Source: Actinomycetospora lemnae (GTDB taxonomy: Bacteria; Actinomycetota; Actinomycetes; Mycobacteriales; Pseudonocardiaceae). From it: a stretch of DNA of 64,000 bases. The notes beneath the pieces are model-generated. The model saw only the letters and a list, made by a program, of their open reading frames with translations. It had not been told where the DNA came from and made no database searches. How positions within the stretch are numbered: the first letter of the stretch is position 1; each line of letters starts with the position of its first letter. The stretch spans positions 124,001 through 188,000 of the forward strand of contig NZ_JAQZAO010000002.1 of NCBI RefSeq assembly GCF_028737315.1, read 5' to 3'. Both the position numbers and the translations under genes were made by a program. Shown here in pieces: positions 7,956-46,752 of the stretch.

Positions 7956-7982
7956 GCCCCGCACCCTGCCGGATGGGCGGCC

Positions 7983-9398
7983 TCAGCGGGCGGTCTGCGC
8001 GGCGAGCGGATCGAGGGTGGGCCCGCGCGGGAGGAGGTCGAGCACCGCGCGCGGCGCCGGACGCGGACCGCCGAGGCCGAGGGCGACCGCCGCGCCGGGG
8101 TCGGGGACGGCGAACACGCGCCCGCCGGGGTCGACGAGGACGCCGGTCGCGGGGTCACCCGCCCCTCCGGGCGCCACGGGGAGGGCGTACGCGCCCCCGC
8201 CCGCGACCCAGGCGCCGTCGAGCGGGGGCCCGACGAGCGGGGTCGGCTCGACCGGCCCGGGCAGCCCGGGACCGGCGAAGACGGCGGTGGTGCCCGCGGC
8301 GTCGGGGCGCGCGCAGACGGTGGTGGCCGTGTCGTAGGTGACCAGGCGCGGGAAGGTGGCCGGGTAGGCGGCGACGTCGACGACCGACACCCGCGGGGCG
8401 TCGGCCAGGCGCCCGGCCGGGACGGCGGCGATGCCGGGGTCGGCGGCCGGGTCGGGGTTGGCGAACCTCGCCAGCTGGGCGACGACCGCCGGTACCTCCT
8501 GCACCCCGTCGGCGGCCACGAGGTGGAAGCGGACGCCGTCCGGGCTGACGACGGCGCCCACGGGCACGCCCAGCGCGGCGGTGCGCGACTCGGTCGGGGT
8601 CGTGCCGGTGCCGGGCACCGTGACCGGTCGCAGCGGCGGCGCCTCGGGCAGCGTGCCGAGCAGCGCCGAGCTGGCGGTGCGGGCCCGCGCGCCGGTGAGC
8701 TCGAGGCCGCGGACCACGGAGCCGGCGTCCGGGAAGATCTGCGCGCGCCGACCCGCGGTGACCAGCCAGAACCCGTCCGGCCCGCGCAGGAGCAGCGCCT
8801 CTTCGCCCGCGAGCGGACGCCCGGGTGCGGGGAGCCCGCCGAGCGCGACGGTGGTGATCACGGGGTCGGCGGCGGGGTCGGGCACCGAGGGGTCGAGGGT
8901 CGCGCGGTCGCACACCGCCCAGGCGTCGGCGATCGGGGCGGCCGGGTCGGGCAGCACCGACGGCGCGCCGGGGATGCCGGCGGGCGCGGTGCGCGGGGCC
9001 TCGGCGAGGGCGTCGTCGCGCACCGGGACGGGCGGGCCGAGGAGCCCGCCGGCGTCCGGGGCGTTGCCCGCCGCCGCGGCGAGCAGGCGCGCGGAGGTCA
9101 GGTTGAGCGCGGGGACCAGGCGGTCGGGGCCGTGCGCGACCGCGTAGAGCGCGCCGGAGGGCTCCCCGCGCACCACGGCCTCGTCGCGCCAGCCCTCGTC
9201 GCCGCGGACGAGGCCGACGACCGCGAACCCGACGAGCGCCAGCACACCGAGGACCGCGCCCACGAGCAGGGCGCGGTCCTGCCGGCGGCCGGGGTCGTGG
9301 CGCGGCGTCGGGTCGCGGCCGACCAGCGCGGACTCCAGGCGGCGCACGGCGAACCGGTGCGCCTGGACCTGGGTCGCGGTGGGCGGGTCCGACGGCAC
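7983..9398 (-). CDS. eccB: Type VII secretion protein EccB, orphan
   Basis: 471 residues, close to the usual EccB length. The N-terminus carries the family signature (TQVQAHRFAVRRLESALV followed by RDP and HDPGRRQ), then a single membrane helix at about 44-64 and a large extracytoplasmic domain with two cysteines (near WAVCDR and TTVCAR) that could form the known disulphide. EccB is the periplasmic component of the ESX membrane complex. No eccC, eccD, eccE, mycP or WXG100 gene is nearby, so it is either a detached part of an ESX system encoded elsewhere or a relic. Confidence 0.9.
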   Translation of the reverse strand: MPSDPPTATQVQAHRFAVRRLESALVGRDPTPRHDPGRRQDRALLVGAVLGVLALVGFAVVGLVRGDEGWRDEAVVRGEPSGALYAVAHGPDRLVPALNLTSARLLAAAAGNAPDAGGLLGPPVPVRDDALAEAPRTAPAGIPGAPSVLPDPAAPIADAWAVCDRATLDPSVPDPAADPVITTVALGGLPAPGRPLAGEEALLLRGPDGFWLVTAGRRAQIFPDAGSVVRGLELTGARARTASSALLGTLPEAPPLRPVTVPGTGTTPTESRTAALGVPVGAVVSPDGVRFHLVAADGVQEVPAVVAQLARFANPDPAADPGIAAVPAGRLADAPRVSVVDVAAYPATFPRLVTYDTATTVCARPDAAGTTAVFAGPGLPGPVEPTPLVGPPLDGAWVAGGGAYALPVAPGGAGDPATGVLVDPGGRVFAVPDPGAAVALGLGGPRPAPRAVLDLLPRGPTLDPLAAQTAR

Positions 9399-9458
9399 AG
9401 GGCGATGCCTACCGCATCGCGGCGCGGCGTGTGGGGCGGTCGCGGGCAGGAGCCGCGT

Positions 9459-28614: not shown

Positions 28615-28698
28615 GTCCGAGTGGCGGAATGGCAGACGCGCTAGCTTGAGGTGCTAGTGCCCTAGTAGGGCGTGGGGGTTCAAGTCCCCCCTCGGACA
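28615..28698 (+). tRNA. tRNA-Leu (GAG)
   Basis: 84 nt. Acceptor arms GTCCGAG and CTCGGAC pair perfectly, with A as discriminator. The anticodon stem CTAGC/GCTAG encloses TTGAGGT, giving anticodon GAG, which reads CUC and CUU codons. The long variable arm (GCCCTAGTAGGGC) is class II, as expected for Leu, and the T arm is GGGGGTTCAAGTCCCCC. CCA is not encoded. Confidence 0.97.
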
Positions 28699-28750
28699 CA
28701 CTTCTCTCTTCTCTTCCCGGGGCGGGTCTCCGACCGGGGACCGACGGCCG

Positions 28751-30235
28751 TCAGTCGTCGGCGTCCTCGTCCTCGCGGTCTTCACGGTCGCGGTCACCGT
28801 CGCGGTGCCGGTCCCGCTCCTCGTGCTCGGCGTCGTCCTCGTCGGTCTGCTCGTCGGCCTCGTCCTCGGCCTGCCGCTCCTCGGCCCGCTCCTCGCGGTC
28901 CCGCGACCGGGGCGACGGGGAGGGCCGCTCGCGCACCGGCGACGCGGCGGTGGTCTCCAGCCGTGTCGAGGGCGGTGGCGCGGACTCGCGGGTCGGAGCC
29001 GCCTCCGGCGGGTCGGTCTCGTCGGCATCCGGACGTCCGGTGGGGTCGGGGCGCTCGGTGGTGTCGGGGCGCGCTGGGCGCTCCTGGTTGTCGGGGCGCT
29101 CGGTGTCGGGGCGCGCCCGGCGCTCCTGGCCGTCCGGGCGCTCGTGGCTGTCCGGGCGCTCGCGCGTGTGCGGGCGCTCGCGGGTGTCGGGGCGCTCGGG
29201 CGTGTCCGGACGCTCCGCGCGCGGGCGGGTGACCGGCTCGGGCTCCCGGTCCGTCCCCGAGCCCGGGCTCTCCTCCCGGCTCGACCCGGTGCTCGGGTCG
29301 GTGCTCGGGTCGGGGTCGTCCGTGTCACCCGGCCCGAGCGGGGGCCGGACCGAGGGCGTGTGTGTCGGCGTGCGGGACGGGTGTTCCGCGGACGATCCCG
29401 TCTCGGGCGCGGCAGCCAGCGCGCTCTCCGGCGAGCGCGGCGAGGTCCGCGGGGATCCCGAGGATCGCGAGGGCTCCGACGTCCGCGAGGGCTCCGACGT
29501 CCGCGAGGGCTCCGACGTCCGCGAGGGCTCCGACGTCCGCGAGGGCTCCGGCGTCCGCGACGGCTCCGACCCCCGCGGTGCGCTCCCGGAGCCGGGCGTG
29601 GACCGGCGCGTCGGGTCCGGCCGGGTCTCCACCTCGTCGTGCAGCGCCCGCCAGCGGGCGCGGACCTCGGAGGCCTCGCGGTCGTCGCCGGTCGGCGGCA
29701 CCACGGCGAGCCGTCGGTCGGCCCGGGCCAGCGCGTCGTTCGCCTGGTCGAGGTCACCGCGCCGCATCGCCGCCGCGGCCTGGTCGAGGTCCGCCGACGC
29801 CAGCACGACGGCGTCGTCGACCGTCGGCGCGGACGGGCTCGAGCCGGGGCCCGACCACACGATCACCACCACCAGGCCGACCAGCGCCGCGGCGGTGAGG
29901 GTGCGGCGAGGGGTGAGCCGACGGGGACGATCCGCCGCGCGGGCCCGCGCGACCAGCGCCGCCGCCCGGTCGACGTCGATCGACCACGTCTGCGGGCACC
30001 GGCACACGCTCCCCCGCCACGCCAGGAGGGTCGCGGCGAGCTCCCGCTCCACCTCCTCGTCGAGGTGGTCGACCGCCGGCTCGGCGACCGCGTGCGTCCC
30101 GGCGGCGACGTCGTCGAGGAAGGCGTCGTCGTCGATGAGCCCGTGCCGCCACCGGAGGTGGTCGCACGACTCCGGTCCCTTGCCCGCGGGACCGCAGCCG
30201 GCGCAGTCCGCGCAGCCGGGGGAGTCGCCGATCAC
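28751..30235 (-). CDS. RsdA-like membrane anti-sigma factor with long disordered exterior
   Basis: 494 residues. The cytoplasmic N-terminus carries CADCAGCG and further cysteines (ESCDH, SVCRCP), then DDDAFLDDVAAG and ELAATLLAWRG, which resemble the SigD-binding region of RsdA. One membrane helix follows (TAAALVGLVVVIVWSG, about 135-150). The outer 340 residues are almost entirely Pro/Ser/Arg/Glu/Asp and include EPSRTS repeats and RPDxxER repeats. It is coupled by GTGA to the upstream sigma factor, which it should sequester at the membrane. The CxxCxxC extension might bind zinc or sense redox state. Confidence 0.75.
   Translation of the reverse strand: MIGDSPGCADCAGCGPAGKGPESCDHLRWRHGLIDDDAFLDDVAAGTHAVAEPAVDHLDEEVERELAATLLAWRGSVCRCPQTWSIDVDRAAALVARARAADRPRRLTPRRTLTAAALVGLVVVIVWSGPGSSPSAPTVDDAVVLASADLDQAAAAMRRGDLDQANDALARADRRLAVVPPTGDDREASEVRARWRALHDEVETRPDPTRRSTPGSGSAPRGSEPSRTPEPSRTSEPSRTSEPSRTSEPSRTSEPSRSSGSPRTSPRSPESALAAAPETGSSAEHPSRTPTHTPSVRPPLGPGDTDDPDPSTDPSTGSSREESPGSGTDREPEPVTRPRAERPDTPERPDTRERPHTRERPDSHERPDGQERRARPDTERPDNQERPARPDTTERPDPTGRPDADETDPPEAAPTRESAPPPSTRLETTAASPVRERPSPSPRSRDREERAEERQAEDEADEQTDEDDAEHEERDRHRDGDRDREDREDEDADD
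29466..29573 (-). repeat. 18-bp tandem repeat in the anti-sigma gene
   Basis: Six contiguous copies of an 18-bp unit (plus-strand CGCGAGGGCTCCGACGTC, the last two diverged), encoding the EPSRTS hexapeptide in the extracytoplasmic region. There are no spacers, so it is not a CRISPR array. Confidence 0.9.
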
Positions 30236-30885
30236 CCGACACCGCCGGTGCGCACCGCGGGGTCGCGGACGGCGCGGTCCTGGGGGCCGACGCCCCGCGC
30301 CGGGCGCCGGCCCGCGGCGAGGTCGCCCTCCAGCACGCGGCGCAGCCGGCAGAGCGCCCGGTGCTGCGCGATGCGCACCGCGCCGGCCGTGATGCCGGTG
30401 GCGTGGGCGACCTCGTCGACCGAGAGCCCCACGACCGTGCGCAGGACCAGGACCTCGCGCTGCCGGTCGGGCAGGTACTCGAGCAGGCGCCCCAGTCGGT
30501 AGCGGGTCCAGGCGTCGATGGCCTGCTGCTCGGGACCGGAGGCGACCTCGGCGGTGTCGAGCAGCTCGGGCACGTCGGAGGTGGCGGCGCTGCGGTCCCG
30601 ACCGAGCGAGCGGAAGGCGTTCGAGACCTTGTGGGCCGCGATCCCGTAGACGAAGGCGAGGAAGGGCCCGTCGCCGCGGCGCCACCGCGGCAGCGCCGTG
30701 ATGACGGAGAGCAACACGTCCTGGGTCAGGTCCTCGGTCGAGGTGATCGGCCGCTCCTGGCCGCCGAACCGCGCCCGGCAATAGCGCTCGACGACCGGTG
30801 TCAGGATGCCGAGCAATTCCTCGAGCGCCGGGCGGTCGCCCCGCGACGCCCTTTCTGCCTGCCCGTCGAGGTCGTCGATCAACAC
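30232..30885 (-). CDS. ECF-type RNA polymerase sigma factor, SigD/ShbA-like
   Basis: 217 residues. Region 2 (DLTQDVLLSVITALPRW, FVYGIAAHKVSNAFRS) and region 4 (LPDRQREVLVLRTVVGLSVDEVAHATG, GAVRIAQHRALCRLRR) are complete. The AHKVSNAFR block is typical of the SigD/ShbA group. It is coupled by GTGA to the RsdA-like anti-sigma factor. The start is uncertain: GTG 30885 sits three bases after GGGGGAG; GTG 30897 and TTG 30882 are alternatives. Confidence 0.85.
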   Translation of the reverse strand: MLIDDLDGQAERASRGDRPALEELLGILTPVVERYCRARFGGQERPITSTEDLTQDVLLSVITALPRWRRGDGPFLAFVYGIAAHKVSNAFRSLGRDRSAATSDVPELLDTAEVASGPEQQAIDAWTRYRLGRLLEYLPDRQREVLVLRTVVGLSVDEVAHATGITAGAVRIAQHRALCRLRRVLEGDLAAGRRPARGVGPQDRAVRDPAVRTGGVG

Positions 30886-31637
30886 GGTCTCCCCCACCCA
30901 CGGCGCCTGCGGTGCACCGATTTCCCCGCGTGACGGTCGCACTTCGCGACGGCGGAACCGGAGGTGGCGGCACCACACGAGTGATCGCCCGCACGTCGGG
31001 GAGCCCCGACTGTGCACCCGCCGGTCGGCGACGACAAGGAATCGTTATCGCTCCGAGGCCGTGGGACCGCGGACGTCCACGTCGCCGGGCGGGACGAGCA
31101 CGGGCGGGCCCCGGGGGGGGACGCCTCGGCCTCCGTCGGAGTACGCCTGGCCCCAGGGACGCCGGCGCGTCGAGCGGCGGTCCGCACCGACCGCGGAGGG
31201 GGACATCGAGCGAGCGCGGTGACCCCGAGCGGACGACTCACCTGTCATGAGGTCGTCACTCACGGCGAGCGGATGGCCCCGGATACAGCGCAGTACAGCA
31301 GAATCTGCACGTCGTGCTACGCCGAATGAGTGAACAACGAGGCTAGATCTGCACCGGTGAGTAACGAAGCAGGGAGTCCCGGTGAATTGGAACACGAGAG
31401 CCGGCACGACGGAGTGCGGGGGGTCGCCATGGGTGGGGCGAGCGGAGGACGGGCACGACGCCGGGGGTGCCGGGCGGTCGGGATGCGCCTCGGGACGCCG
31501 CGCGGCGAGGACCCCGGTCGGCCTGCCCCCCGGTGGCCCGAACGCATTCCGGCCCACGCCGGGTCATCGATTCCGTGTGCGCGGGTCAACCATTCTCCGT
31601 CGTCGGTCGAGCACGCAACGCAACGGGGGGAACCGTC
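30886..31637. other. Long non-coding gap between the sigma factor and the biosynthetic cluster
   Basis: About 750 bp without a convincing gene, clearly less GC-rich than its surroundings in its right half (about 31240-31400). It should contain the sigma-factor promoter (minus) and the cluster promoter (plus). An imperfect 14-bp direct repeat, GTGAACAACGAGGC at 31330 and GTGAGTAACGAAGC at 31357, is visible. A weak 103-codon frame (31330-31641) ends exactly at the PLP-enzyme start in a GTGA overlap, but its third codon positions are much less GC-rich than real genes here. Confidence 0.5.
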
Positions 31638-32624
31638 GTGACCATCATCTCCGATCCCCTCCAGTACAACGAGGACGAGCTGTTCGTCGACCTGCGCGCG
31701 ATGACCGGTCACTCGCTCTTCCTCAAGTGCGAGGGATTCAACTTCGCCGGGTCCATCAAATTGAAGGCCGCCCTCGGGATGGTCGAGGCGGCCGAGCGCG
31801 ACGGGCTCCTCAACCAGTGGTCGATCCTCGTCGAGTCGTCGTCCGGGAACCTCGGTGTGGCGCTGGCGATGGTCGCGGCGAGCAAGGGCTACCGGTTCCT
31901 CTGCGTGACCGACCCGCGCTGCAACGAGACCACCAGCCGGCTCATCCGCACGCTCGGCAGCGACGTCCACACCGTCACCGAGCCGAACCCGGTGACCGGC
32001 TTCCTCGGTGCGCGCCTCGACCACATCCAGCGGCTCTGCGCCTCGAGCCCTCGATACGTCTGGCTCGACCAGTACGCCAACCCGGCCAACTGGCGGGCAC
32101 ACCACCGCACGACGGCGCCGGCGATCGCCCGCCAGTTCCCCGAGCTCGACGTGCTGTTCGTCGGCGCGGGCACCACCGGGACGCTGATGGGCTGCGCGCG
32201 GTGGTTCCGCTGGTGGAACCCGGACGTGCGCATCGTCGCCGTCGACGCCGTGGGCTCGGTGAGCTTCGGCGGCCCGGCCTCGCGGCGGCTGATCCCCGGT
32301 CTCGGCATGAGCGTGCCGCCACCGCAGCTCGACACGTCGCTCGTCGACGACGTCGTGCGCGTCGAGGAGGAGGACACCGTCCGCGCCTGCCACCGTCTGG
32401 CCTCGCGCGGCTTCCTGTTCGGCGGCTCGACGGGGACGGTGGTCAGCGGCGCCACGGCGTGGCTCGAGCGGCACGGCGTGCCCGGTCTCACGGCGGTCGC
32501 GATCGCCCCGGACATGGGCGAGCGGTACCTCGACACCGTCTACTCGCGCTCCTGGGTGCTCGAGCACTACGGCGACTCCGTGCTCGGGCGGGAGGCACCC
32601 GTCGTCGACGCCCGATCGGCCTGA
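31638..32624 (+). CDS. CysK2/SbnA-like PLP-dependent cysteine synthase family enzyme
   Basis: 328 residues, fold-type II PLP enzyme. The PLP lysine lies in FNFAGSIKLKAA, the phosphate-binding loop is GAGTTGT, and SSSGNLG replaces the usual substrate loop. FNFAGSIKLK and GGSTGTV resemble the O-phosphoserine-using CysK2 (S-sulfocysteine synthase) and proteins annotated as SbnA. SbnA condenses O-phosphoserine with glutamate toward 2,3-diaminopropionate; its partner SbnB is not in this window. Start GTG has GGGGGG upstream. It is followed three bases later by the Pls-like NRPS and probably supplies its building block. Confidence 0.83.
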   Translation: MTIISDPLQYNEDELFVDLRAMTGHSLFLKCEGFNFAGSIKLKAALGMVEAAERDGLLNQWSILVESSSGNLGVALAMVAASKGYRFLCVTDPRCNETTSRLIRTLGSDVHTVTEPNPVTGFLGARLDHIQRLCASSPRYVWLDQYANPANWRAHHRTTAPAIARQFPELDVLFVGAGTTGTLMGCARWFRWWNPDVRIVAVDAVGSVSFGGPASRRLIPGLGMSVPPPQLDTSLVDDVVRVEEEDTVRACHRLASRGFLFGGSTGTVVSGATAWLERHGVPGLTAVAIAPDMGERYLDTVYSRSWVLEHYGDSVLGREAPVVDARSA

Positions 32625-32627
32625 CCG

Positions 32628-35600
32628 ATGGCGTCCCGGTTGCCGATCCCGCCGACGGGATCCGACACGGGGCGCCCGCTGCTCCGCCTCGCGGGGCCGC
32701 CGGCGCCCGACCCGTCCCACGCCGACCACGTCCTCATCGACGGGCGGGAGGCCCAGGGCCCCCGTGCCCGCGCCGGGGAACGCCTCGACGACCTCGTCGC
32801 GGTGCGCTGCGCGTCGTTGCGGGACGCCGACCGGCTCGACACGGCCGCGCTGGAGATCCCTGACCGCACCCTGTCGTACGGGGAGCTCGACGCGGACGCG
32901 AACCGCCTCGCGCGCTACCTGCGCCTCCACGGGGTGCGCGGGGGCGACCGCGTGGCGCTGCGGCTCGACAGCCCGGACGCCGCCCACCTCGCGCTGCTCG
33001 CCCTCGCACGGCTGGGCGCGGCGACGGTCACGGTCGCCCCCGGCCTGTCCCCCGACGACACGACGACGCTGCTCGCCGACGTCGGGGCCACGACCCTGCT
33101 CGCCACCGACCGGGACACCCCGGAGCTGACGGGGCCCGCGCTCGCGGCGGGCGCGGACGTCGTCGCCGTCGACCGGGCCGCCGCCCTGATCGCCGAGCAG
33201 GACCCCCGCGCGCTGCTCGAGGTGGAGTCCGGTCCCCGCCGGGACGCGCTCGCCTACGTCGTCCCCACCACCGACGACGCCGGGCTGCGGGCCACGGCCG
33301 TCGACCACACCGCGGCCGTGGCGCTGGTGCGGGTGCTCGCCGACGTGCTCGGCCTGCGGCCCGGGGACCGCGTGCACCGCGGTGCGGCGCCGGGCTCCGA
33401 CCTCGCGGTGCTCGAGACGTGGCTCCCGTGGGCGCGCGGGGCCACGGTGGTCGTCCCGCCGAGCGGCGTCGAGCGGGCGCCGGCCGCCCTCGGCCGCCAC
33501 CTGCGTGCCCAGCACGTGTCCGTGCTGTGCGCCGCCCCGGACCTGCTCGCCGGGATCGACGAGGACCTGCCGGACCTGCGCCTCGTCGTCGTCCCGGGCC
33601 CGGCGTACCCCCAGGACCTCGTCGCGCGCTGGCACCGCCCGGGCCGCCGTCTCGTCGGGATCTACGGCCCGCCCGAGGCGACCGTCGCGGCGCTGTGGAC
33701 CGAGCTCCGGCCCGACGGGGCCGCCACGCTCGGCGTGCCGCTGCCCACCGGTCGGGTCGTCGTCCTCGACCCCGGCCGGCCGGCCCGCACCCTGCCACCG
33801 GGCGCGGTCGGCGAGATCGGCCTCGCCGGGGCCGGGGTGGCCCGCGGCTACGTCGGGCGCGCCGAGCTCGACCGCGAGACCTTCGTCCCCGACCCCCTCG
33901 GCATCCCGGGCAACCCCTCGGGCCGCGTCGTCCGGACCGGCGACCTCGGCCGCGCCACCGAGGACGGCGAGGTCGAGTTCCTCGGGCGGCTCGTCGACGC
34001 CGGTGGTCGGGGCTCCCGTCCGACGGCGATGACCGTCCCGCGGCGGGCCGCGGTGACGGTCCCGGTGGTGCCGCCGCTCCCGCCGCTCCCGCCGCCACTC
34101 CCGCCGTCGCCACCGCTCCCCTCGCTCCCGCCCTCCTCGCGCCCTCGCGTCCGGGTCACGACCTCCGCGCCCCCGGCCGACAGCGCCCCCACCGTCGCCC
34201 TGTCCGTCGCGGCTCTCGCGCCCCCGCCGACGGCACCGCCCGCGCCCCCGCCGACGGCACCGCCCGCGACCCCGCCGGCACCGCCCGCGACCGCGCCGGC
34301 TCCCCCCGATCGCACGCAGGCCCTGCTCGCCGAGATCCTCGCCGGGGCGCTCGACCGCGACGACGTCCCCGTCGACGCGCACGTGTTCGACGACCTCGGC
34401 GCCGACTCGATGCTCATGGCCCGCTTCTGCGCCCGGGTCCGCAAGCACCCCGACCTGCCCTCGATCGCGATGCAGGACGTCTACGCCCACCCCACCGTCG
34501 CTCAGCTGGCGACCGCCCTCGCGCCGACGACCACACTGACCACGACGACCACGACGACCACGACGACCACCCCGGCGCCCCGGGCGGACGAGCCGGCACC
34601 CGAGCCGGACCCGGAGCCGGAGCCCGTCCCCCGCGCCGGCCGCGTCGCCTACGTGCTCTGCGGCGCGGCGCAGCTGCTCTTCGTCCTCGGCTACACGTAC
34701 GTTGCCGCGACGATCGTGACCTGGGCGTTCGAGTGGCTCGCGCTCGCGCCCGACGAGCTGCACCTCTACCTGCGGTCGGTGGCCGTCGGCTCCTTCGCCT
34801 TCGCCGTGCTCTCGATCCTGCCGATCGCGCTCAAGTGGCTGCTCGTCGGGCGGTGGCGGCCCCGCGAGTTCCCGATCTGGGGGCTGACCTACCTGCGACT
34901 GTGGATCGTCCGGGTCCTCGTGCAGTCGAGCCCGCTGGTGCTGTTCGTCGGCACGCCGATCTACCCGTTCTACCTCCGGGCGCTGGGGGCGCGGGTCGGC
35001 AAGGGCGCCGTGCTGCTCTCCGGACCCGTGCCGGTCTGCGCCGACCTCCTGACCGTCGGGGCGGGCGCCCTCGTCCGCAACGACGTGTTCCTCGCCGGCT
35101 ACCGCGCCCACGACGGCCGGATCCAGACCGGGCCGGTGACCATCGGGCGGGACGCCGTCGTCGGCGAGAACGTCGTGCTCGACATCGACACCACGATCGG
35201 CGACGGTGCGACCCTCGGGCACAGCTCGTCGCTGCACCGCGGACAGTCCGTGCCCGCCGGCGCGACCTGGCACGGCTCCCCCGCCCGCGAGGCGCCCACG
35301 GCGTACCCGACCGTCCCGCCGATGCGGTGCGGGGCGCTGCGCAAGGTCGCCTACTCGGTGGTCTCGCTGGCCGTCCTGCTCGCCGTGGTCCTGCCGCTCG
35401 CCGCCGGCGGCACGGCCCTGCTGGTGCTGGAGATCCCGCAGCTCCGGGCACTCATCGAGCCCGGTCCCGGGGCCCTGACGAGCCGCCTGTTCTGGATGGA
35501 GACCCTGCTCGTGTCGGTGATCGGGGTCTTCGGGCTCGTGCTGGTCGGCCTGCTGGTCGTCACCACGCTGCCCCGGCTCTTCGCCCTGGGGGTCCGTCCC

Positions 35601-36800
35601 GATCGCGTCTACGCCCTCTACGGCGTGCACTACTGGTGCCACCGCTGGGTCTCCGGCCTGACCAACGTCACGGCGTTCACCTACCTGTTCGGTGACAGCT
35701 CCGCCATCGCCCACTACCTGGGCCGGCTCGGCTACCGGTTGCGACCGCTGGTGCAGACCGGCTCGAACTTCGGGATGGCGGTCAAGCAGGAGAACCCGTA
35801 CCTCACGCGGGTCGGGAGCGGGACGGTCGTCGCCGACGGCCTGTCGGTGATGAACGCCGACTACTCGGCCACGTCGTTCCGCGTGTCGACGACGGGGATC
35901 GGCGCCCGCAACTTCCTCGGCAACCGGATCCACTACCCGCCCCAGGGGCGCACCGGCGACGACTGCCTGCTCGCGACCAAGGTGATGGTCCCGGTGGACG
36001 GCCCGGTCCGGGAGGGCGTGGGGCTGCTCGGCTCGCCGAGCTTCGAGATCCCCCGCTCCGTCGCCCGCGACGACGCCCTCGACCTCGGCGGCGACGAGCT
36101 CGCCCGTGGCCTGCGGCGCAAGAACCGGCACAACGCGACGACGATGGCGCTGTTCCTGCTCGTGCGCTGGTGGCTCTTCCTCGGCATGGCGGCCCTCGTC
36201 GCGTGCATCGCGTCGGTCCCCGTGCGCCTCGGGGCGATCGAGATGCTCGTGGCGCAGCTGCTCATCTTCGTCTTCGGGACGCTGTGGCTGGTGCTGGTCG
36301 AGCGCAGCGTGGCGCGGCTGCAGTGCCGGGCGCCCGAGGGCCGCTCGATCTACGACCCCTCCTTCTGGCGGCACGAGCGGTTCTGGAAGGTGGCGCTGCC
36401 GGACTGGGTCGTGGTGTTCAACGGCACGCCCTACAAGAACCTCGTCTGGCGGATGCTCGGCGTCCGGATCGGCAAGCGCGTCTTCGACGACGGCGTGAAC
36501 CTCACCGAGCGGACCTTCACCACCATCGGCGACGAGTGCACGTTCAACGCCCAGACGGTGCTGCAGTGCCACTCGCAGGAGGACGGCGCCTTCAAGTCCG
36601 AGGTGATCACGGTCGGCGCCGGCGTGACGCTCGGCGTCGGCGCCTTCGCGCACTACGGCACGACGATCGGCGACGGCGCGGTCCTCGCCCCCGACACGTT
36701 CCTCATGAAGGGTGAGGAGGTGCCGCCCGGCGAGTACTGGGGCGGCAACCCGGCCCGCGCGATGGCGCCCGGCACGATCCCGACGGGGGGACGACGATGA
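32628..36800 (+). CDS. Pls/PosA-type single-module NRPS with degenerate adenylation domain
   Basis: 1390 residues. Order: adenylation domain (about 60-465), Pro-rich linker (470-560), carrier domain (DDLGADSM, Ser594), poly-Thr linker, then about 700 residues of alternating membrane helices and left-handed beta-helix (hexapeptide) acyltransferase-like units, as in epsilon-poly-lysine synthetase-type enzymes. The A domain keeps A2 (LSYGEL), A5 (IYGPPEA, near 344) and A7 (RTGDLGR, near 433). The P-loop A3 is replaced by LAYVVPTTDDAGLRATAV, and the C-terminal subdomain with the A10 lysine is missing. It probably cannot adenylate by itself. It is coupled to the next gene (ATGA). Confidence 0.85.
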   Translation: MASRLPIPPTGSDTGRPLLRLAGPPAPDPSHADHVLIDGREAQGPRARAGERLDDLVAVRCASLRDADRLDTAALEIPDRTLSYGELDADANRLARYLRLHGVRGGDRVALRLDSPDAAHLALLALARLGAATVTVAPGLSPDDTTTLLADVGATTLLATDRDTPELTGPALAAGADVVAVDRAAALIAEQDPRALLEVESGPRRDALAYVVPTTDDAGLRATAVDHTAAVALVRVLADVLGLRPGDRVHRGAAPGSDLAVLETWLPWARGATVVVPPSGVERAPAALGRHLRAQHVSVLCAAPDLLAGIDEDLPDLRLVVVPGPAYPQDLVARWHRPGRRLVGIYGPPEATVAALWTELRPDGAATLGVPLPTGRVVVLDPGRPARTLPPGAVGEIGLAGAGVARGYVGRAELDRETFVPDPLGIPGNPSGRVVRTGDLGRATEDGEVEFLGRLVDAGGRGSRPTAMTVPRRAAVTVPVVPPLPPLPPPLPPSPPLPSLPPSSRPRVRVTTSAPPADSAPTVALSVAALAPPPTAPPAPPPTAPPATPPAPPATAPAPPDRTQALLAEILAGALDRDDVPVDAHVFDDLGADSMLMARFCARVRKHPDLPSIAMQDVYAHPTVAQLATALAPTTTLTTTTTTTTTTTPAPRADEPAPEPDPEPEPVPRAGRVAYVLCGAAQLLFVLGYTYVAATIVTWAFEWLALAPDELHLYLRSVAVGSFAFAVLSILPIALKWLLVGRWRPREFPIWGLTYLRLWIVRVLVQSSPLVLFVGTPIYPFYLRALGARVGKGAVLLSGPVPVCADLLTVGAGALVRNDVFLAGYRAHDGRIQTGPVTIGRDAVVGENVVLDIDTTIGDGATLGHSSSLHRGQSVPAGATWHGSPAREAPTAYPTVPPMRCGALRKVAYSVVSLAVLLAVVLPLAAGGTALLVLEIPQLRALIEPGPGALTSRLFWMETLLVSVIGVFGLVLVGLLVVTTLPRLFALGVRPDRVYALYGVHYWCHRWVSGLTNVTAFTYLFGDSSAIAHYLGRLGYRLRPLVQTGSNFGMAVKQENPYLTRVGSGTVVADGLSVMNADYSATSFRVSTTGIGARNFLGNRIHYPPQGRTGDDCLLATKVMVPVDGPVREGVGLLGSPSFEIPRSVARDDALDLGGDELARGLRRKNRHNATTMALFLLVRWWLFLGMAALVACIASVPVRLGAIEMLVAQLLIFVFGTLWLVLVERSVARLQCRAPEGRSIYDPSFWRHERFWKVALPDWVVVFNGTPYKNLVWRMLGVRIGKRVFDDGVNLTERTFTTIGDECTFNAQTVLQCHSQEDGAFKSEVITVGAGVTLGVGAFAHYGTTIGDGAVLAPDTFLMKGEEVPPGEYWGGNPARAMAPGTIPTGGRR
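34529..34570 (+). repeat. ACGACC repeat encoding a poly-Thr linker
   Basis: A run of ACGACC hexamers encodes about 12 consecutive threonines between the carrier domain and the membrane part of the synthetase. Prone to slippage but in frame. Confidence 0.8.
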
Positions 36801-37777
36801 CACCGACCGAGCGGCGGCTGGCCGCGGTGTGGGCGCCGCTGCTCGGGGTGGACGCGGACGCGATCGGGCGTCACGACCACTTCTTCGACCGGGGCGGCTC
36901 GTCGCTGCAGGCCGTCACGATGGTGCTGCGCCTGGGCAAGGAGGTGTCGCTCTCCGAGGTCACCCGCCACCCGGTCCTCGCCGACCTCGCCGCGCTCATC
37001 GACCAGCGCCCGGCCCCGACGACCGGGCTGCTCCACGCCCTCTCCGACCCCGGCGAGGGCGGGCGCGGCACGCTCGTCGGGCTGCCGCCCGCGGGCGGGC
37101 ACGCGGTGAACTTCCGGCCGCTGGCCACGGCGCTGCGCGGCAGCGGGCTCGCGGTGCACGCCGTCGAGCTGCCCGGGCACGACCCGGACGGCGGGGACGG
37201 TGCCCTGGCCGGGCTCGACGAGGTCGCCGACCGGGTCGCCGCCGAGGTCGCCGACCGCGCCGCGCCCGTCGTCCTGTGGGGCCACTCCGCCGGTGCCGCG
37301 ATGGCCGTCGCGGTGGCCCGGCGCCTGGAGGACCGGGGCACGCCCGCGCGCCGGGTCGTGATCGGCGCGCAGCTGCTCGGCGACGCCGACGCCCGGCGCC
37401 GGGACGCCGCCGAACTGGCGGCCCGCAGCGACGCGGACCTGCTGGCCGGGAACGCGGTGCAGCCCCACCTCGACCCCCGCTCCGCCGCGCGGGCGGCGGC
37501 GGCCTTCCGCCACGACTGCCTGGCCGCGCACGCGTACCTGGTCGGCGCCCTCGAGGACCCGCCGGCCGTCCGCCTCGCGACGCCGATCTCCGTGGTGCTC
37601 GCCGCCGACGACCCGAGCACCGCCGGGCGCGAGGCGAGCCACCGGGACTGGGCGCTGTTCGCCCGGCACGTCGAGCTGCACGTCCTCGACGACGGTGGCC
37701 ACCACTTCCTCCGCACCCGCCCGGCCGCCGCCGCCGGCATCGTGCGCACCGCCGCCGACCTCGTCCCCGCGTCCTGA
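36797..37777 (+). CDS. Carrier-thioesterase protein (T-TE)
   Basis: 326 residues. An N-terminal phosphopantetheine carrier domain (DHFFDRGGSSLQAV, Ser36) is joined to a type I-like alpha/beta-hydrolase thioesterase with GHSAG (Ser164), a late Asp (AADDPS) and His (GGHHF). This is the last part of an NRPS module without its own C and A domains. It begins by ATGA overlap with the Pls-like synthetase. It may accept the amino acid or short peptide from the synthetase or from a free ligase and release it after modification by the oxygenase downstream. Confidence 0.87.
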   Translation: MTPTERRLAAVWAPLLGVDADAIGRHDHFFDRGGSSLQAVTMVLRLGKEVSLSEVTRHPVLADLAALIDQRPAPTTGLLHALSDPGEGGRGTLVGLPPAGGHAVNFRPLATALRGSGLAVHAVELPGHDPDGGDGALAGLDEVADRVAAEVADRAAPVVLWGHSAGAAMAVAVARRLEDRGTPARRVVIGAQLLGDADARRRDAAELAARSDADLLAGNAVQPHLDPRSAARAAAAFRHDCLAAHAYLVGALEDPPAVRLATPISVVLAADDPSTAGREASHRDWALFARHVELHVLDDGGHHFLRTRPAAAAGIVRTAADLVPAS

Positions 37778-37799
37778 CGTCCACCCCGGAGGAACCGCG

Positions 37800-38807
37800 A
37801 TGTCCCACCCCGACCTCGCCGTGCAGCGCCCGCCCGGCCGTCCCCCGCAGCTGGTCGTGGACGCCGACGGCGACCCGGTCGGCTGGCTCGGCCGGCACCG
37901 CGACGCCCTGCGCGGCGCGGTCCTGGCCCACGGCGCGGTCCTGCTGCGCGGCCTCGGGCTGCGCGACGACGTCGACGCCGGCGCCGCGCTGCGCGCCCTC
38001 GCCCCCGGCGGGCTGCTGCCCGAGCGGGAGGCGTTCGCGCCGCGCCAGCCCTACCCGGGCGGCGCGTACTCGTCGACGAAGTGGCCGGCGCAGCAGCGGA
38101 TGTGCCTGCACCACGAGCTGAGCTACGGGCTGCAGTTCCCCGGCACGATGATGTTCGCCTGCCTCGTCGCCCCGACCGCGGGCGGCGAGACGGCGATCGC
38201 CGACGCCGCCGCGGTGCTCGAGGCCCTGCCGCCCGAGCTCGTCGCACGCTGCGACCGGGAGGGCTGGCGCCTCGACCGCTCCTACGGCGACGAGATCGGC
38301 GCGGCCTGGAGCGAGGCCTTCGGCACCGACGACCCGCGCGCCGTCGAGCACTACTGCCGCAGCCACGGCATCGAGTTCGCGTGGCGCGACGACGGCGGGC
38401 TGCGGACACGGCAGCGGCGCCCCGCGATCGCCCGGCATCCGGTCACCGGGGTGCGGTGCTGGTTCAACCAGATCGCCTTCCTCAACGCCCACACCCTCGA
38501 CGACGAGGTGCGCGCGTTCCTCCTGGAGGTGTTCGGCGAGGAGGGGCTGCCGTTCACCACCCGCTTCGGCGACGGCGAGGAGGTCGGTGCGGACGTGGTC
38601 GCCCTGGTCAACGAGGTCTACGAACGGCACACGCTCCGCGAGCCGTGGGAGGCCGGCGACCTGCTGCTCGTCGACAACGTGCGGACCGCCCACGGCCGCG
38701 AGCCCTACGTCGGGACGCGCGCGGTGCTCGTCGGCATGGCCGATCCACTGCACGTCGCGCAGCTCGCCCCGACCGCCGCCCCGACCGCCACCGCGGCCGC
38801 GTCGTGA
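37800..38807 (+). CDS. TauD/TfdA-family Fe(II)/2-oxoglutarate oxygenase, SyrP-like
   Basis: 335 residues. The iron ligands are His104 and Glu106 in CLHHELSYG, and His298 in VRTAHGR, with Arg for 2-oxoglutarate nearby (GTRAVL). The segment after the ligands (FFAC-like MFACLVAPTAGGETAIAD) resembles SyrP and other NRPS-associated beta-hydroxylases that act on carrier-bound amino acids. GGAGG stands seven bases before ATG. It probably hydroxylates the residue held on the carrier protein upstream. The GTGA overlap couples it to the lipoprotein. Confidence 0.87.
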   Translation: MSHPDLAVQRPPGRPPQLVVDADGDPVGWLGRHRDALRGAVLAHGAVLLRGLGLRDDVDAGAALRALAPGGLLPEREAFAPRQPYPGGAYSSTKWPAQQRMCLHHELSYGLQFPGTMMFACLVAPTAGGETAIADAAAVLEALPPELVARCDREGWRLDRSYGDEIGAAWSEAFGTDDPRAVEHYCRSHGIEFAWRDDGGLRTRQRRPAIARHPVTGVRCWFNQIAFLNAHTLDDEVRAFLLEVFGEEGLPFTTRFGDGEEVGADVVALVNEVYERHTLREPWEAGDLLLVDNVRTAHGREPYVGTRAVLVGMADPLHVAQLAPTAAPTATAAAS

Positions 38808-39400
38808 CCGCCGCCCGGACCGCGCGATGCCTGCTCGCCGGGGTGGCGGCCGCGGTGCTGCTCCTCGGTGCGGCGTGCTCGTCGCCGCCGGCCGCCCCGC
38901 CCGCACCGCCCGCCACACCGGCTCCGTCGGCGGCTCCGGCCGGGGAAGCCCCCGACTCACCAGCCGACGACGCCGCCCCCGACGTGGTGCCCCTCACGTT
39001 CGGCGCGACGCACGCATTCCCCGACGGCAACACGGTCACCGTCGGCTCGCCCGTCGTGGGTCCGCCGCCGCCGGGGACGCCGTTCCCGCGCAGCCTCGAG
39101 GTGACCGTCACCGTCCGGAACGGGACGCCGGCGGCCGAGGACCTGTCCCGCTTCGGGTTCGACGCGACCGTGCCGGGCGAGCCCGAGGACCGGGAGGCGC
39201 CGCCCGTCGGCGACGGCCCCGACGGCCCCCTCGGACCGGGTGAGGAACGCACCTTCCCCGTGCGCTTCGCCCTGCCCGACCCCGGGCCCACCGAGGCCAC
39301 GGTCGAGGTCTCGAAGGCCGACCAGACCCCCGCCGGCGAGGACGTCCCGGGCAGCGACGAGGCCCCGGGCGCGGTCGTCGCGTTCGCCGGGCAGGTCTGA
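38804..39400 (+). CDS. Predicted lipoprotein, DUF4352-like
   Basis: 198 residues. A signal peptide ends in LLLGAACSS, a weak lipobox with the cysteine near 25. A Pro/Ala-rich spacer (to about 60) leads to an Ig-like beta domain (FGATHAFPDGNTVTVGSP, LEVTVTVRNGT) of the type found in DUF4352 proteins of Gram-positive cell envelopes. It is coupled to the oxygenase (GTGA), so it may belong to the biosynthetic cluster, for example in binding or immunity at the surface; that is inference only. Confidence 0.75.
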   Translation: MTAARTARCLLAGVAAAVLLLGAACSSPPAAPPAPPATPAPSAAPAGEAPDSPADDAAPDVVPLTFGATHAFPDGNTVTVGSPVVGPPPPGTPFPRSLEVTVTVRNGTPAAEDLSRFGFDATVPGEPEDREAPPVGDGPDGPLGPGEERTFPVRFALPDPGPTEATVEVSKADQTPAGEDVPGSDEAPGAVVAFAGQV

Positions 39401-42952: not shown

Positions 42953-43996
42953 TCAGCCCTTCTCCACCAGCGGCGCGACCTCGGTGCCCAGCAGCTCGAT
43001 GGAGTGCAACAGGTCCGCGTGGCGCAGGCGCGGGTTGGTCATCTGCAGGTTGATCCGCTCGACGCCGCCGAGCTGCTCGGAGACCCGCAGGACCTTGTCC
43101 GCCACAGTCTTCGGGTCCCCGACGAAGAACGCCCCGTCCGGCCCGCGCATGGCGTCGAACGCGCGACGGGTCGGCGGCATCCCGCCCCGCTCGGCCGCCA
43201 CCGTCGTGAACATCTCCTCCCACCCCGGGTAGAAGGCGTTGGTCGCCTTCGCGACGTCGTCGCCGACGAACCCGAAGCAGTGCAGGCCCACGCGCAGCGC
43301 CTCCGGCGGGTGCCCCGCGTGCTCGCCCGCGCGCCGGTAGAGGTCGACGAGCGGCGCGAACTGCCGCGGCTCGCCCCCGATGATCGCGACCATGAGCGGC
43401 AGCCCGAGCAGGCCGGCGCGGGCGAACGACTCGGGCGTGCCACCGACGCCGACCCAGATCGGCAGGCGCTCCTGCGACGGCCGCGGGTAGACGGGCTGGT
43501 TGCTCAGTGCCGGGCGGTGCTTGCCGGACCACGTCACCGTCGGCGACTCGTTGATCTTGAGCAGCAGGTCGAGCTTCTCGGTGAAGAGGTCGTCGTAGTC
43601 CTCGAACGCCAGCCCGAACAGCGGGAACGCCTCGACGAACGACCCGCGCCCGACGACCAGGTCGACCCGGCCGCGCGAGATGAGGTCGATCGTCGCGAAC
43701 TCCTGGAACACCCGCACCGGGTCGGCCGCCGAGAGCACGGTGACCGCGCTGCGCAGGCGGATGTTCTCGGTGCGCGCAGCGGCCGCGGCGAGGATCACCG
43801 GCGGCGCGGCGTCGAAGTACTCGCTGCGGTGGTGCTCGCCGATGCCGTAGGAGTGGAGGCCCACCCGGTCGGCGAGCGCGATCTCGTCGAGGAGGTGCTC
43901 GAAGCGCTCCTCGGGGCCGACGACCCGCTCGGTGTCGGGGTCGGTGACCCGGGCGACGAAGCTGTCGACGCCGAGGAGGACGGGGGCGTCGCTCAC
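42953..43996 (-). CDS. LLM-class flavin-dependent oxidoreductase
   Basis: 347 residues, luciferase-like (bacterial luciferase/alkanal monooxygenase) TIM barrel. Conserved parts include GIGEHHRSEYFDAAP near residue 50, the FATIDLISRGRVDLVVGRGS block and WVGVGGTPESFARAG. It belongs to the F420- or FMN-linked group; the cofactor cannot be decided from the sequence. The GTG start overlaps the htpG stop (GTGA), so it is translated after HtpG. Confidence 0.88.
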   Translation of the reverse strand: MSDAPVLLGVDSFVARVTDPDTERVVGPEERFEHLLDEIALADRVGLHSYGIGEHHRSEYFDAAPPVILAAAAARTENIRLRSAVTVLSAADPVRVFQEFATIDLISRGRVDLVVGRGSFVEAFPLFGLAFEDYDDLFTEKLDLLLKINESPTVTWSGKHRPALSNQPVYPRPSQERLPIWVGVGGTPESFARAGLLGLPLMVAIIGGEPRQFAPLVDLYRRAGEHAGHPPEALRVGLHCFGFVGDDVAKATNAFYPGWEEMFTTVAAERGGMPPTRRAFDAMRGPDGAFFVGDPKTVADKVLRVSEQLGGVERINLQMTNPRLRHADLLHSIELLGTEVAPLVEKG

Positions 43997-45834
43997 AGCG
44001 TCTTCTGCAGACGCTCGGCCAGGGTGTTGACGAACGCCGTCGGCTCCTTGAGGTCGCCGCCCTCGGCCAGCAGCGCCATGCCGTAGAGCAGGCGCGCGAC
44101 GTCCGGGTCGGCCTCGCCGGCGCCCTGCTTGTCGCGCAGGCCGCTGACCAGCGCGTGCTTCGGGTTGAGCTCGAGGGTCCGCTTGGTCACCGGCGGCTCC
44201 TGGCCCATCGCCCGGTACATCTTCTCGAGCATCGGCGAGAGGTCGCCGGGGTCGCCGACGAGGCAGGCCGGCGAGCTCGTCAGCCGCGACGACAGGCGGA
44301 CCTCCTTGACGTCGTCGGCGAGCTCGGTGCCCATCCAGCTCAGGAGGTCGTCGAAGCCCTCCGGGACGTCCTCGTCGCCGAGGTCGACGTCGCCCTTGGC
44401 GATCGAGGCCATCGGGGTGCCGTCGAACTCGCTGACGGTGTCGGTCCAGACCTCGTCGACCTGGTCGGTGAGCAGGAGGACCTCGTAGCCCTTGGCCCGG
44501 AACGCCTCGATGTGCGGGGAGTTCTCGATGCTGCTGCGGCTGGCGCCGGTGAGGTAGTAGATCGCCTCCTGGCCCTCGGGCATCCGCTCCTTGTACGCCG
44601 TGAGGGTGGTGTCCTCGTCGGCGGAGTGGGTCGAGGGGAACGAGCTGGCGGCGAGGATCGCCTCCCGGTTGTCCGGGTCGGTGATCAGGCCCTCCTTGAA
44701 CGCCCGGCCCAGCTCGCCCCAGAAGGTGCGGTACTTCTCCGGCTCGTTCTCCTGCAGGGCCTTGACGGTCTGGAGCACCTTGCGGACCAGCCGCTTGCGG
44801 ATGGCCTGGATCTGGCGGTCCTGCTGGAGGATCTCGCGCGAGACGTTGAGCGAGAGGTCCGCGGCGTCGACGACGCCCTTGACGAAGCGCAGGTACTCGG
44901 GGACGAGCGCCTCGCAGTCGTCCATGACGAACACGCGCTTGACGTAGAGCTGCACCCCGCGCCGGGCCTCGCGCATGAACAGGTCCATCGGCGCATGGCT
45001 CGGGAGGAACAGCAGGCCCTGGTACTCGAACGTGCCCTCGCCGGAGAGCCGCATCGTCTCCAGCGGCTCCTGCCAGTCGTGGCTGACGTGGCGGTAGAAC
45101 TCGGTGAGCTCCTCGTCGGTCACCTCCGAGGGCGGCCGCGCCCAGAGGGCCTTGCGCGAGTTGACGGGATCGGTGTCGCCCTCGTCCTCGCCGCTGAGCA
45201 GGCGGATCGGCCAGGTGATGAAGTCCGAGTAGCGCTTGACGATGCGCCGGACGACGTCGGGCTTCGCGTAGTCGTGGAGGCTGTCCTCCGCGTCCTCGGC
45301 CTTGAGGTGCAGCGTGATCGCGGTGCCCTGCGGGGCGTCCGCGACGGGCTCGAGGGTGTAGGTGCCCTCGCCGGTCGACTCCCAGTGCACGCCCTCGGCG
45401 GCGCCGGCCTTGCGCGTCACCATCTCGACGCGGTCGGCGACCATGAAGCTCGAGTAGAAGCCGATGCCGAACTGGCCGATGAGGTCCTCGGCCTGCGCCT
45501 CCTGCGACTCGCGCATCTGGCGCAGCATCTCGGCGGTGCCCGACTTCGCGATGGTGCCGATGAGCTCGACGACCTCGTCGCGCGTCATGCCGATGCCGTT
45601 GTCGCGGACGGTCAGCGTGCGGGCCTCGGCGTCCTGCTCCAGCTCGATGCGCAGGTCGGACGTGTCGACCTCGAGGTCCTTGTCGCGGTAGGACTCGAGC
45701 CGCAGCTTGTCCAGCGCGTCCGAGGCGTTCGAGATCAGCTCCCGCAGGAAGACGTCCTTGTCGGAGTAGATCGAGTGGATCATCAGCTGGAGCAGCTGAC
45801 GGGCCTCGGCCTGGAACTCGATCGTCTCGCTCAT
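43993..45834 (-). CDS. htpG: Molecular chaperone HtpG (Hsp90)
   Basis: 613 residues. The N-terminal GHKL ATPase domain has the Glu of LISNASDAL, RDNGIGM and GQFGIGFYS. The middle domain holds the catalytic Arg loop (LNVSREILQ), and the C-terminal domain is shorter but complete, ending in FVNTLAERL. It folds and remodels client proteins in the cytoplasm. ATG 45834 follows GGGAGAGG; a TATCCT hexamer about 45 bp upstream could be its promoter. No CIRCE or HAIR element is seen. Confidence 0.97.
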   Translation of the reverse strand: MSETIEFQAEARQLLQLMIHSIYSDKDVFLRELISNASDALDKLRLESYRDKDLEVDTSDLRIELEQDAEARTLTVRDNGIGMTRDEVVELIGTIAKSGTAEMLRQMRESQEAQAEDLIGQFGIGFYSSFMVADRVEMVTRKAGAAEGVHWESTGEGTYTLEPVADAPQGTAITLHLKAEDAEDSLHDYAKPDVVRRIVKRYSDFITWPIRLLSGEDEGDTDPVNSRKALWARPPSEVTDEELTEFYRHVSHDWQEPLETMRLSGEGTFEYQGLLFLPSHAPMDLFMREARRGVQLYVKRVFVMDDCEALVPEYLRFVKGVVDAADLSLNVSREILQQDRQIQAIRKRLVRKVLQTVKALQENEPEKYRTFWGELGRAFKEGLITDPDNREAILAASSFPSTHSADEDTTLTAYKERMPEGQEAIYYLTGASRSSIENSPHIEAFRAKGYEVLLLTDQVDEVWTDTVSEFDGTPMASIAKGDVDLGDEDVPEGFDDLLSWMGTELADDVKEVRLSSRLTSSPACLVGDPGDLSPMLEKMYRAMGQEPPVTKRTLELNPKHALVSGLRDKQGAGEADPDVARLLYGMALLAEGGDLKEPTAFVNTLAERLQKTL

Positions 45835-46102
45835 GCGTCCTCTCCCGCGGTGGTCGTGGCGTGCACCGTCGAGGATATCCGCCGGCCGCAGTGGGCCGGG
45901 TGGCCCAGCCACCCGCGGGGTCACGCCGCGAGCTCGCTCGGGAGGGCGCGGAGGTGCAGGACAGTCCTGCGCGGCCACCGACAGCGCCTCGCGATCGCGG
46001 CGGTCCGGTCGGGAGTGCAGGGACGGCGTCAGGCACCGCTCATCTGCGGCGAGATCGCCCCAGGTGCTCCACGCACCCGCTGCGCGCTGCGTCGAAGCCC
46101 GT

Positions 46103-46752
46103 GTGCACACCGAGAACGACCTCGCCGCCCTCCTGCGCCGACAGGACGGCGTGATCTCCCGTGCGCAGGCCCTGGCCTGCGGTCTGACCCGCGGAGCGAT
46201 CGACCACCGCCTCGCCCACGGACTGTGGACGCTGCGGTGGCCTCGCGTCTACCTGTCGACGGCCCACCAGCTCGGCCCGCGGGGACGGGTGCGAGCGGCG
46301 TCGCTGTGGCTCGGTCCCTCGGCGACGCTGATCGGTGCCGGCGCGGCCTGGTGGTGGCGGCTCCTCGACGAATCCCCGGACGTCCTGCGCTTCGCCGTGC
46401 CCCCGACGCGGAGGGTGCGATCGCGCGGCGACGTGAAGGTCGTGCGTCGGACGGTGGAGGTGTGCGCCACGGTGCAGGGCGTGCGGGTGGTGCCGAAGGC
46501 CGGCGCGGTGGTCGACGCCGCCGCCGAGCTGGGCCTGCACCACGGTGCCGAGCTCATGGACCGCGCGTGCTCGTCGAGGTCGACGGCTGGGCGTACCACC
46601 GCGAGCTACCGGCCTTCCGCCGCGATCACGCACGCCAGAACGCCCTCGTCCTCGCCGGCTGGACGGTGCTGCGCGTCGACTGGCACGCCCTCGACGCCGA
46701 CCCGGCCGCCGTCCTCGCGACGATCACGGCCGCGACCGCCACCGCCGCATGA
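46103..46752 (+). pseudogene. AbiEi/DUF559-type protein, disrupted by an internal deletion and frameshift
   Basis: The first 153 codons encode an N-terminal AbiEi-like antitoxin/helix-turn-helix domain (LLRRQDGVISRAQALACGL, YLSTAHQLGP) and a second domain ending ...GAELMDRA. At about 46562 the frame shifts: the other frame continues as VLVEVDGWAYHRE ... ALVLAGWTVLRVDW, the C-terminal half of a DUF559 restriction-endonuclease-like domain. The helical region normally between them (about 90-100 residues) is missing. In family members the two parts are joined, so this is a remnant. GTG start. Confidence 0.75.

Follow-up and report, generated by a model that had tools for sequence, protein, structure and literature searches.

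The Pls/PosA-type synthetases that have been described carry an adenylation (A) domain of their own, as far as the accessible sections of the reports go (PMC4668381, PMC8117764, PMC10522769). In the available part of PMC4668381, the poly(L-diaminopropionic acid) synthetase of Streptomyces albulus PD-1 has an A domain that activates diaminopropionate (Dap) and is fed by the SbnA/SbnB-like Dap enzymes NjxA and NjxB; excerpts of PMC10522769 likewise give PosA, the delta-poly-L-ornithine synthetase, a working A domain. Here, we describe a five-gene operon at positions 31638–39400 of a 64,000-nucleotide stretch of Actinomycetospora lemnae DNA (contig NZ_JAQZAO010000002.1, positions 124001–188000; C21 in our numbering), hereafter "the window", from a genome of 6.06 Mb (G000). 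The operon likewise encodes an SbnA-type enzyme and a Pls with the same type of membrane condensation domain as PosA, but the A domain of this Pls is vestigial and, unlike that of PosA, does not appear to work. It also includes a carrier–thioesterase (T-TE) protein and a TauD-type oxygenase, neither of which is described for PD-1 in the accessible text.

The reading that we favor, with moderate confidence, sees in the operon a satellite, reduced from a widespread Dap cassette, that would depend on a second cluster, on contig C28 of the same genome, both for Dap (through SbnB) and for loading of its carriers in trans. This reading draws on the architecture of the operon, on the parts it lacks and their single copies at the second cluster, on purifying selection, and on the resemblance of the A domain encoded there to a Dap-binding one, all of which are read directly from the sequences. 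A precedent for trans-loading exists in capreomycin biosynthesis, where CmnA-A1 loads L-Dap onto the A-less CmnI (available portion of PMC12400406). Those two proteins belong to one pathway, whereas the acceptors proposed here are the Pls carrier and the T-TE protein, which lie in a different cluster from the donor. The features of the operon are as follows.

31638..32624, + strand: SbnA-type pyridoxal phosphate (PLP) enzyme, predicted first step of Dap synthesis (TIGR03945, nearest solved chains, residues)
32628..36800, + strand: Pls/PosA-type synthetase with pseudo-A domain, Pro-rich linker, one carrier (T) domain and membrane Pls condensation region (TIGR02353; AMP-binding and PP-binding)
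32838..33989, + strand: vestigial A domain in Pls, without A3 P-loop and C-terminal subdomain (translation, strict A3 pattern)
34323..34520, + strand: T domain of Pls, GADSM motif (PF00550, residues 566–631)
34659..36755, + strand: C-terminal condensation/membrane region of Pls (TIGR02353, residues 678–1376)
36797..37777, + strand: T-TE protein, remnant of a nonribosomal peptide synthetase (NRPS) of C'-A-T-TE type (Pfam PP-binding and Thioesterase; alignment with A. cinnamomea C'-A-T-TE)
37800..38807, + strand: TauD/clavaminate-synthase-like Fe(II)/2-oxoglutarate oxygenase (PF02668, 144.9 bits)
38804..39400, + strand: small lipoprotein (lipoprotein-like sequence VTAARTARCLLAGVAAAVLLLGAAC)

The operon and its vestigial adenylation domain

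An original prediction, made from the sequence alone, had placed five genes on one strand, and their positions and spacings (a 3-bp gap, an ATGA overlap, a 22-bp gap and a GTGA overlap, in order) were confirmed; the gaps and overlaps at the four junctions bear out the tight, operon-like arrangement that it proposed. It had also suggested looking for the same gene order in relatives. The order does recur in A. straminea (G015), where the same genes are split over two contigs (L062 and L102, the latter with GTGA overlaps at Pls/T-TE and at TauD/lipoprotein), and in G011 (L064), which lacks the pseudo-A. Because content and order recur in these two genomes, the arrangement is not a matter of chance, but among the loci examined it is confined to close Actinomycetospora relatives. 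The predicted Pls-type condensation domain (TIGR02353, 690.7 bits; cut-off 423.1) and oxygenase gene held up as well. What that prediction did not contain is the degenerate state of the Pls A domain and the absence of parts common to most relatives.

The translated window Pls has AYVVPTTDDAGLRATAVDH as its A3 loop, and where the C-terminal subdomain would be expected there is a Pro-rich linker. Pfam finds AMP-binding and PP-binding in this protein, but not AMP-binding_C (PF13193), which is present in the NRPSs of loci L073 and L070 and in the canonical Pls on contig C10, and absent from the window Pls and that on contig C26. Within the window clade (at least 59% identity in the C-terminal part), none of 20 Pls matched the strict A3 pattern, L070 and L102 among them being cut by contig ends; all 13 other genus Pls taken for comparison did match. 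A3 was the sole motif criterion, since an A10 pattern matched no row, intact controls included. A functional-looking A domain in cis, as in Pls/PosA synthetases, was found in the intact-A controls and not in the window Pls. In A. straminea, A3 is degenerate in the same way. Relatives from other genera differ in where the vestige is truncated or degenerate (L078, L083, L111, L128, L130, L159 and L163), and the A. cinnamomea (G004) Pls has two T domains and no A domain at this position. When the cassette parts were mapped in the Streptomyces loci, no A-domain match adjoined the Pls. With A3 and the C-terminal subdomain missing, the window Pls should therefore not load itself, and by sequence the clade as a whole does not appear to do so. 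Consequently, homopolymer synthesis by the Pls alone, which the original prediction implied, cannot be taken for granted.

Further Pls genes occur in the A. lemnae genome. One, at L232 12945–17270 on C26, is an orphan whose A domain is vestigial and which has two T domains; within the surrounding 20 kb, the sole queried cassette part is a distant cysteine-synthase-like gene (38% identical), and similar Pls copies in G001 and G003 are 61–62% identical to the window Pls. Another, at L233 6898–11034 on C10, is a canonical Pls whose A domain is intact and whose C-terminal part shows about 31% identity to that of the window Pls; the gene after it looks, by eye, like a glutamine amidotransferase.

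The first gene scored 381.9 bits against TIGR03945 (cut-off 349.95), and its nearest solved chains are SbnA (5d84–5d87), followed by CmnB. All 13 rows compared, including the window, retain the PLP lysine and the counterparts of Arg132 and Tyr152 of SbnA, with Gly at the position of Ser185. Arg132, Tyr152 and Ser185 are what we take to be the specificity residues of SbnA, so that two of the three are kept. A PLP protein on C26 falls just under the TIGR03945 cut-off (348.0 versus 349.95). A divergent SbnA-like gene (L021, on contig C12 of G006, a genome without the cassette) is 42% identical to the window SbnA; since it adjoins an SbnB-like gene (34%), it may itself be an SbnA and is uninformative as a non-SbnA control. 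There is a third SbnA copy in A. lemnae (L071 9785–10720, on C13; TIGR03945, 359.6 bits), and the other queried cassette parts were absent within 20 kb around it. T-Pls, T(-TE), TauD and the SbnA-type enzyme are all present and clustered in the window operon. The carrier serine and the GHSAG/D/H residues of the T-TE protein are intact by alignment, and the oxygenase has the TauD fold and the HxE...H residues, which are presumably its metal ligands; for SbnA, T, TE and TauD alike, every catalytic residue that was checked is kept.

The wider cassette and the second cluster

A TauD profile scan of one genome per species gave at least 522 relatives, and the analysis used the best 80 of these. Among named loci, those of A. 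straminea (TauD 92% identical) and A. cinnamomea (80%) are nearest. SbnA, SbnB, a cognate A-T NRPS, TauD and Pls occur together in 56 of the best 80 loci and in 50 of the 54 untruncated named loci (at least 9 kb either side of TauD; the exceptions are L112, L140, L141 and L178), and a TE was detected in 37 of the 54. Hosts among the best 80 include Streptomyces, Pseudonocardia, Geodermatophilus, Blastococcus, Arthrobacter and Kutzneria; the cassette is also found in the Chloroflexota species Ktedonosporobacter rubrisoli and in some contigs of metagenome-assembled genomes (MAGs) labelled as other phyla. The typical set is T(-T)-Pls, a C'-A-T-TE NRPS (1,083 residues in L073), TauD, SbnB and SbnA. 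C' is a fragment, matching positions 193–279 of the 456-position Pfam Condensation profile in L073, under cut-off. In the MAG contigs L178 and L179 (labelled Rokuibacteriota and Acidobacteria; L179 is cut close to TauD) we found NRPS and TauD, and in L178 also Pls, but not SbnB or a close SbnA. The most recurrent families in the flanks of 92 loci, named by eye, are a threonine-synthase-like PLP gene and its apparent antisense frame (10 of 92 each) and a Sfp-type phosphopantetheinyl transferase (9 of 92); no transporter was recognized among the 21 flank families listed, judged by eye from partial sequences.

In S. scabies, an SbnB homologue has been reported close to an NRPS and to a homologue of sbnA (PMC11479980, as far as the available text goes). 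No paper recognized as treating this gene set turned up in full-text literature searches, which covered few subscription papers, so that a description may exist elsewhere; nor was anything found for the A-domain signature code strings or the PDB codes. The predicted lack of a characterized precedent for the product agrees with these searches. Identity with the "dipeptide" cluster SCO6429-38 of S. coelicolor was considered, but was not established and is not claimed.

The code of the cognate A domain is DIWQ(S/A)TADD, read at what we take to be the signature positions. Over the substrate-binding stretch, its nearest chain, first in the structural list, is the Dap-bound A domain of sulfazecin SulM module 3 (9n1u/9n1v), which is Dap-specific. 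By sequence, then, the cognate A domain resembles a Dap-binding one. The Dap connection that had been predicted is supported. The likeness to SulM does not extend to release. According to the accessible part of PMC11298585, the SulM TE closes its beta-lactam by a cysteine, whereas the window TE has a serine (GHSAG); monobactam-type ring closure was rejected on this ground. Unlike in SulM, a sulfotransferase was not seen among the recurrent genes of the cassette loci.

Compared to the typical set, the window operon lacks C'-A and SbnB and retains T-TE from the NRPS. Rather than the added second carrier of the original prediction, T-TE is what was left after the loss of C'-A. There is no room for C'-A, because the Pls stop overlaps the T-TE start, and none for SbnB, because TauD overlaps the lipoprotein gene. 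Cognate C'-A (at least 67% identity) is found in 14 of 18 genus genomes and SbnB (at least 72% identity) in 13 of 18, always as one copy; in A. lemnae, the sole copies found are on C28 (L070). Loci without C'-A (or A) and SbnB occur in five of the 18 Actinomycetospora genomes (G000, G001, G011, G015 and G017). Only sbnA, T-T-Pls and the lipoprotein remain in G001, and the reduced locus of G017 (on that genome's own contig C28) has C'-T-TE without A. All five genomes have their single C'-A and SbnB at a second, approximately 65%-identical cluster (L070, L234, L235, L236 and L237), the NRPS of which is C'-A-T with no TE match. The T domain of the C28 NRPS is 69% identical to the window T-TE carrier. 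A. cinnamomea has a complete window-type locus, with its C'-A and SbnB there only, and no second cluster. Between sbnB and sbnA of L070 (6819–9408) lie, by eye, a Ser/Thr protein-kinase-like gene (7534–9408) and, on the minus strand, an FHA-like gene (6819–7472).

In the sbnA tree, the complete A. cinnamomea locus pairs with the reduced G011 locus (support 100/98) and the window with A. straminea (100/99; one row, G017second, whose coordinates are wrong and whose branch is very long, was disregarded). The tauD tree, which did not include G001, gives the same pairs (98/94 and 100/99). As two of three trees thus pair the complete locus with a reduced one, the losses look repeated. If the full form is ancestral, this would imply two or three losses at the window-type locus and one more in G017; alternatively, the missing parts may have been transferred back into A. 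cinnamomea.

All five operon genes are under purifying selection relative to A. straminea. Nei–Gojobori ratios of nonsynonymous to synonymous substitution (dN/dS) were 0.16 for SbnA and 0.25 for the pseudo-A over 460 codons, 0.22 for TauD and, against L102, 0.37 for the Pls C-part, 0.25 for T-TE and 0.34 for the lipoprotein; against G004, G011 and G001 they ranged from 0.18 to 0.50. The reduced form is common to both species, which suggests that the constraint has acted since the loss.

The proposed pathway and its rivals

If the operon is a dependent satellite of the C28 cluster, the product of SbnA (from the window or C28) would be converted to L-Dap by the C28 SbnB, and the single Dap-type A domain of the C28 C'-A-T protein would activate Dap and load its own T domain as well as, in trans, the T-TE carrier and the window Pls carrier. 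The Pls membrane domain would then join Dap units, TauD might hydroxylate an intermediate, either free or on a carrier, and a short (iso)peptide would be released by the TE. We infer the trans-loading and the hydroxylation target from protein families and gene content, and the product, a short, possibly hydroxylated, Dap (iso)peptide, in the same way. The reduced operon looks maintained, probably because the second cluster supplies the missing parts. The orphan A-less Pls on C26 may draw on the same donor. More tentatively, and with rather less than even confidence, one Dap A domain and one SbnB could serve A-less Pls at three loci (C21, C28 and C26), giving several oligo-Dap products.

If the proposal is true, a widespread Pls clade would lack a working A domain and have its Dap activator on a separate protein, sometimes at a separate locus, which would change how such polymerases are predicted and engineered. 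A cluster-by-cluster search for intact modules would miss dependencies between clusters. As the cassette occurs in many Streptomyces, Pseudonocardiaceae, Geodermatophilaceae and Micrococcaceae and a Ktedonosporobacter, and no assigned product was found, a loading result would bear on many loci.

Several observations weigh against the proposal. The first gene passes the SbnA model but might be of CysK2 type, as the original prediction also allowed. The lead of SulM A3 in the structural list is small, and over the whole A region 9n1u (262 bits, from a chain lacking the C-terminal subdomain) falls below Txo2 (322), PvdL (303) and LgrA (549 over two domains). In the plsC tree, the relationship among G004, G011 and the window pair is not resolved. 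G016 has C'-A and no close SbnB. Amycolatopsis taiwanensis (L112) would be a case in favor from outside the genus, having Pls and TauD without a cognate A at the locus and one of 66% identity on another contig, but a different A domain downstream (30% identical) could serve it. The Microtetraspora sp. NBRC 13810 locus (L141 6727–13038) lacks C'-A, and no cognate A was found in that genome at E≤1e-90; a deletion extends from the Pls end into the A domain. With its truncated Pls and split sbnA, this copy looks broken. Reduced copies need not all work, since the reading frame of the G011 Pls changes in the middle of the gene. With so few loss events, the association with a donor is only suggestive.

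The main rival to dependence on C28 is that the operon is a decaying relic, made redundant when the second cluster arrived, which is losing genes and now makes nothing. The G011 and Microtetraspora copies fit such decay, as does the stepwise loss within the genus, from the full set in G004, through loci without C'-A and SbnB (G000, G015 and G011), to the three genes of G001. However, none of the five operon genes is interrupted, SbnA, T-TE and TauD retain the catalytic residues that were checked, and dN/dS is 0.16–0.37 between two species sharing the reduced form; we regard a relic as unlikely.

Less probable still is a chemistry independent of C28, in which SbnA makes something other than Dap (a glutamate conjugate or a cysteine derivative, for example) and in which loading of the carriers falls to some unrelated A domain, for instance that of the C10 Pls. 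It would account for an operon without SbnB and for the Gly at the Ser185 position, draws on the CysK2 alternative for the first gene, and finds candidate donors among the other A domains of G000, including the intact canonical Pls (L233). The same Gly, however, occurs in SbnA copies with SbnB nearby, and the window T-TE carrier shares 69% identity with the T domain that lies in cis with the C28 Dap-type A domain.

Self-loading of the window Pls to give a homopolymer, the reading implied by the original prediction, is very improbable: Pfam AMP-binding does match residues 71–408 (149 bits), and TIGR01733 matches at positions 1–377 of 409 (under cut-off), but A3 is replaced, the A10 lysine and C-terminal subdomain are absent, the A. 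cinnamomea Pls contains no A domain, and no A-domain match adjoins the Pls of the Streptomyces loci. A self-sufficient homopolymer synthetase was rejected, the A domain being a pseudo-A.

The lipoprotein gene and the flanks of the operon

The lipoprotein gene (38804..39400) has no family match in Pfam or NCBIfam. Homologues occur at L063/L103, L064, L065 and L102. Five Actinomycetospora genomes carry this gene, always at the end of the locus, of which it is a genus-specific component.

Divergent from the operon, at 30232–31017 of the window, is a gene for a ShbA-like sigma factor (207.1 bits; cut-off 209). In every relative compared (L062–L065, L102 and L103), the window-type locus adjoins this ShbA-like gene, the gene at 43993–46110, or both. 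A tRNA-Leu (gag) lies upstream of the operon, at 28615–28699.

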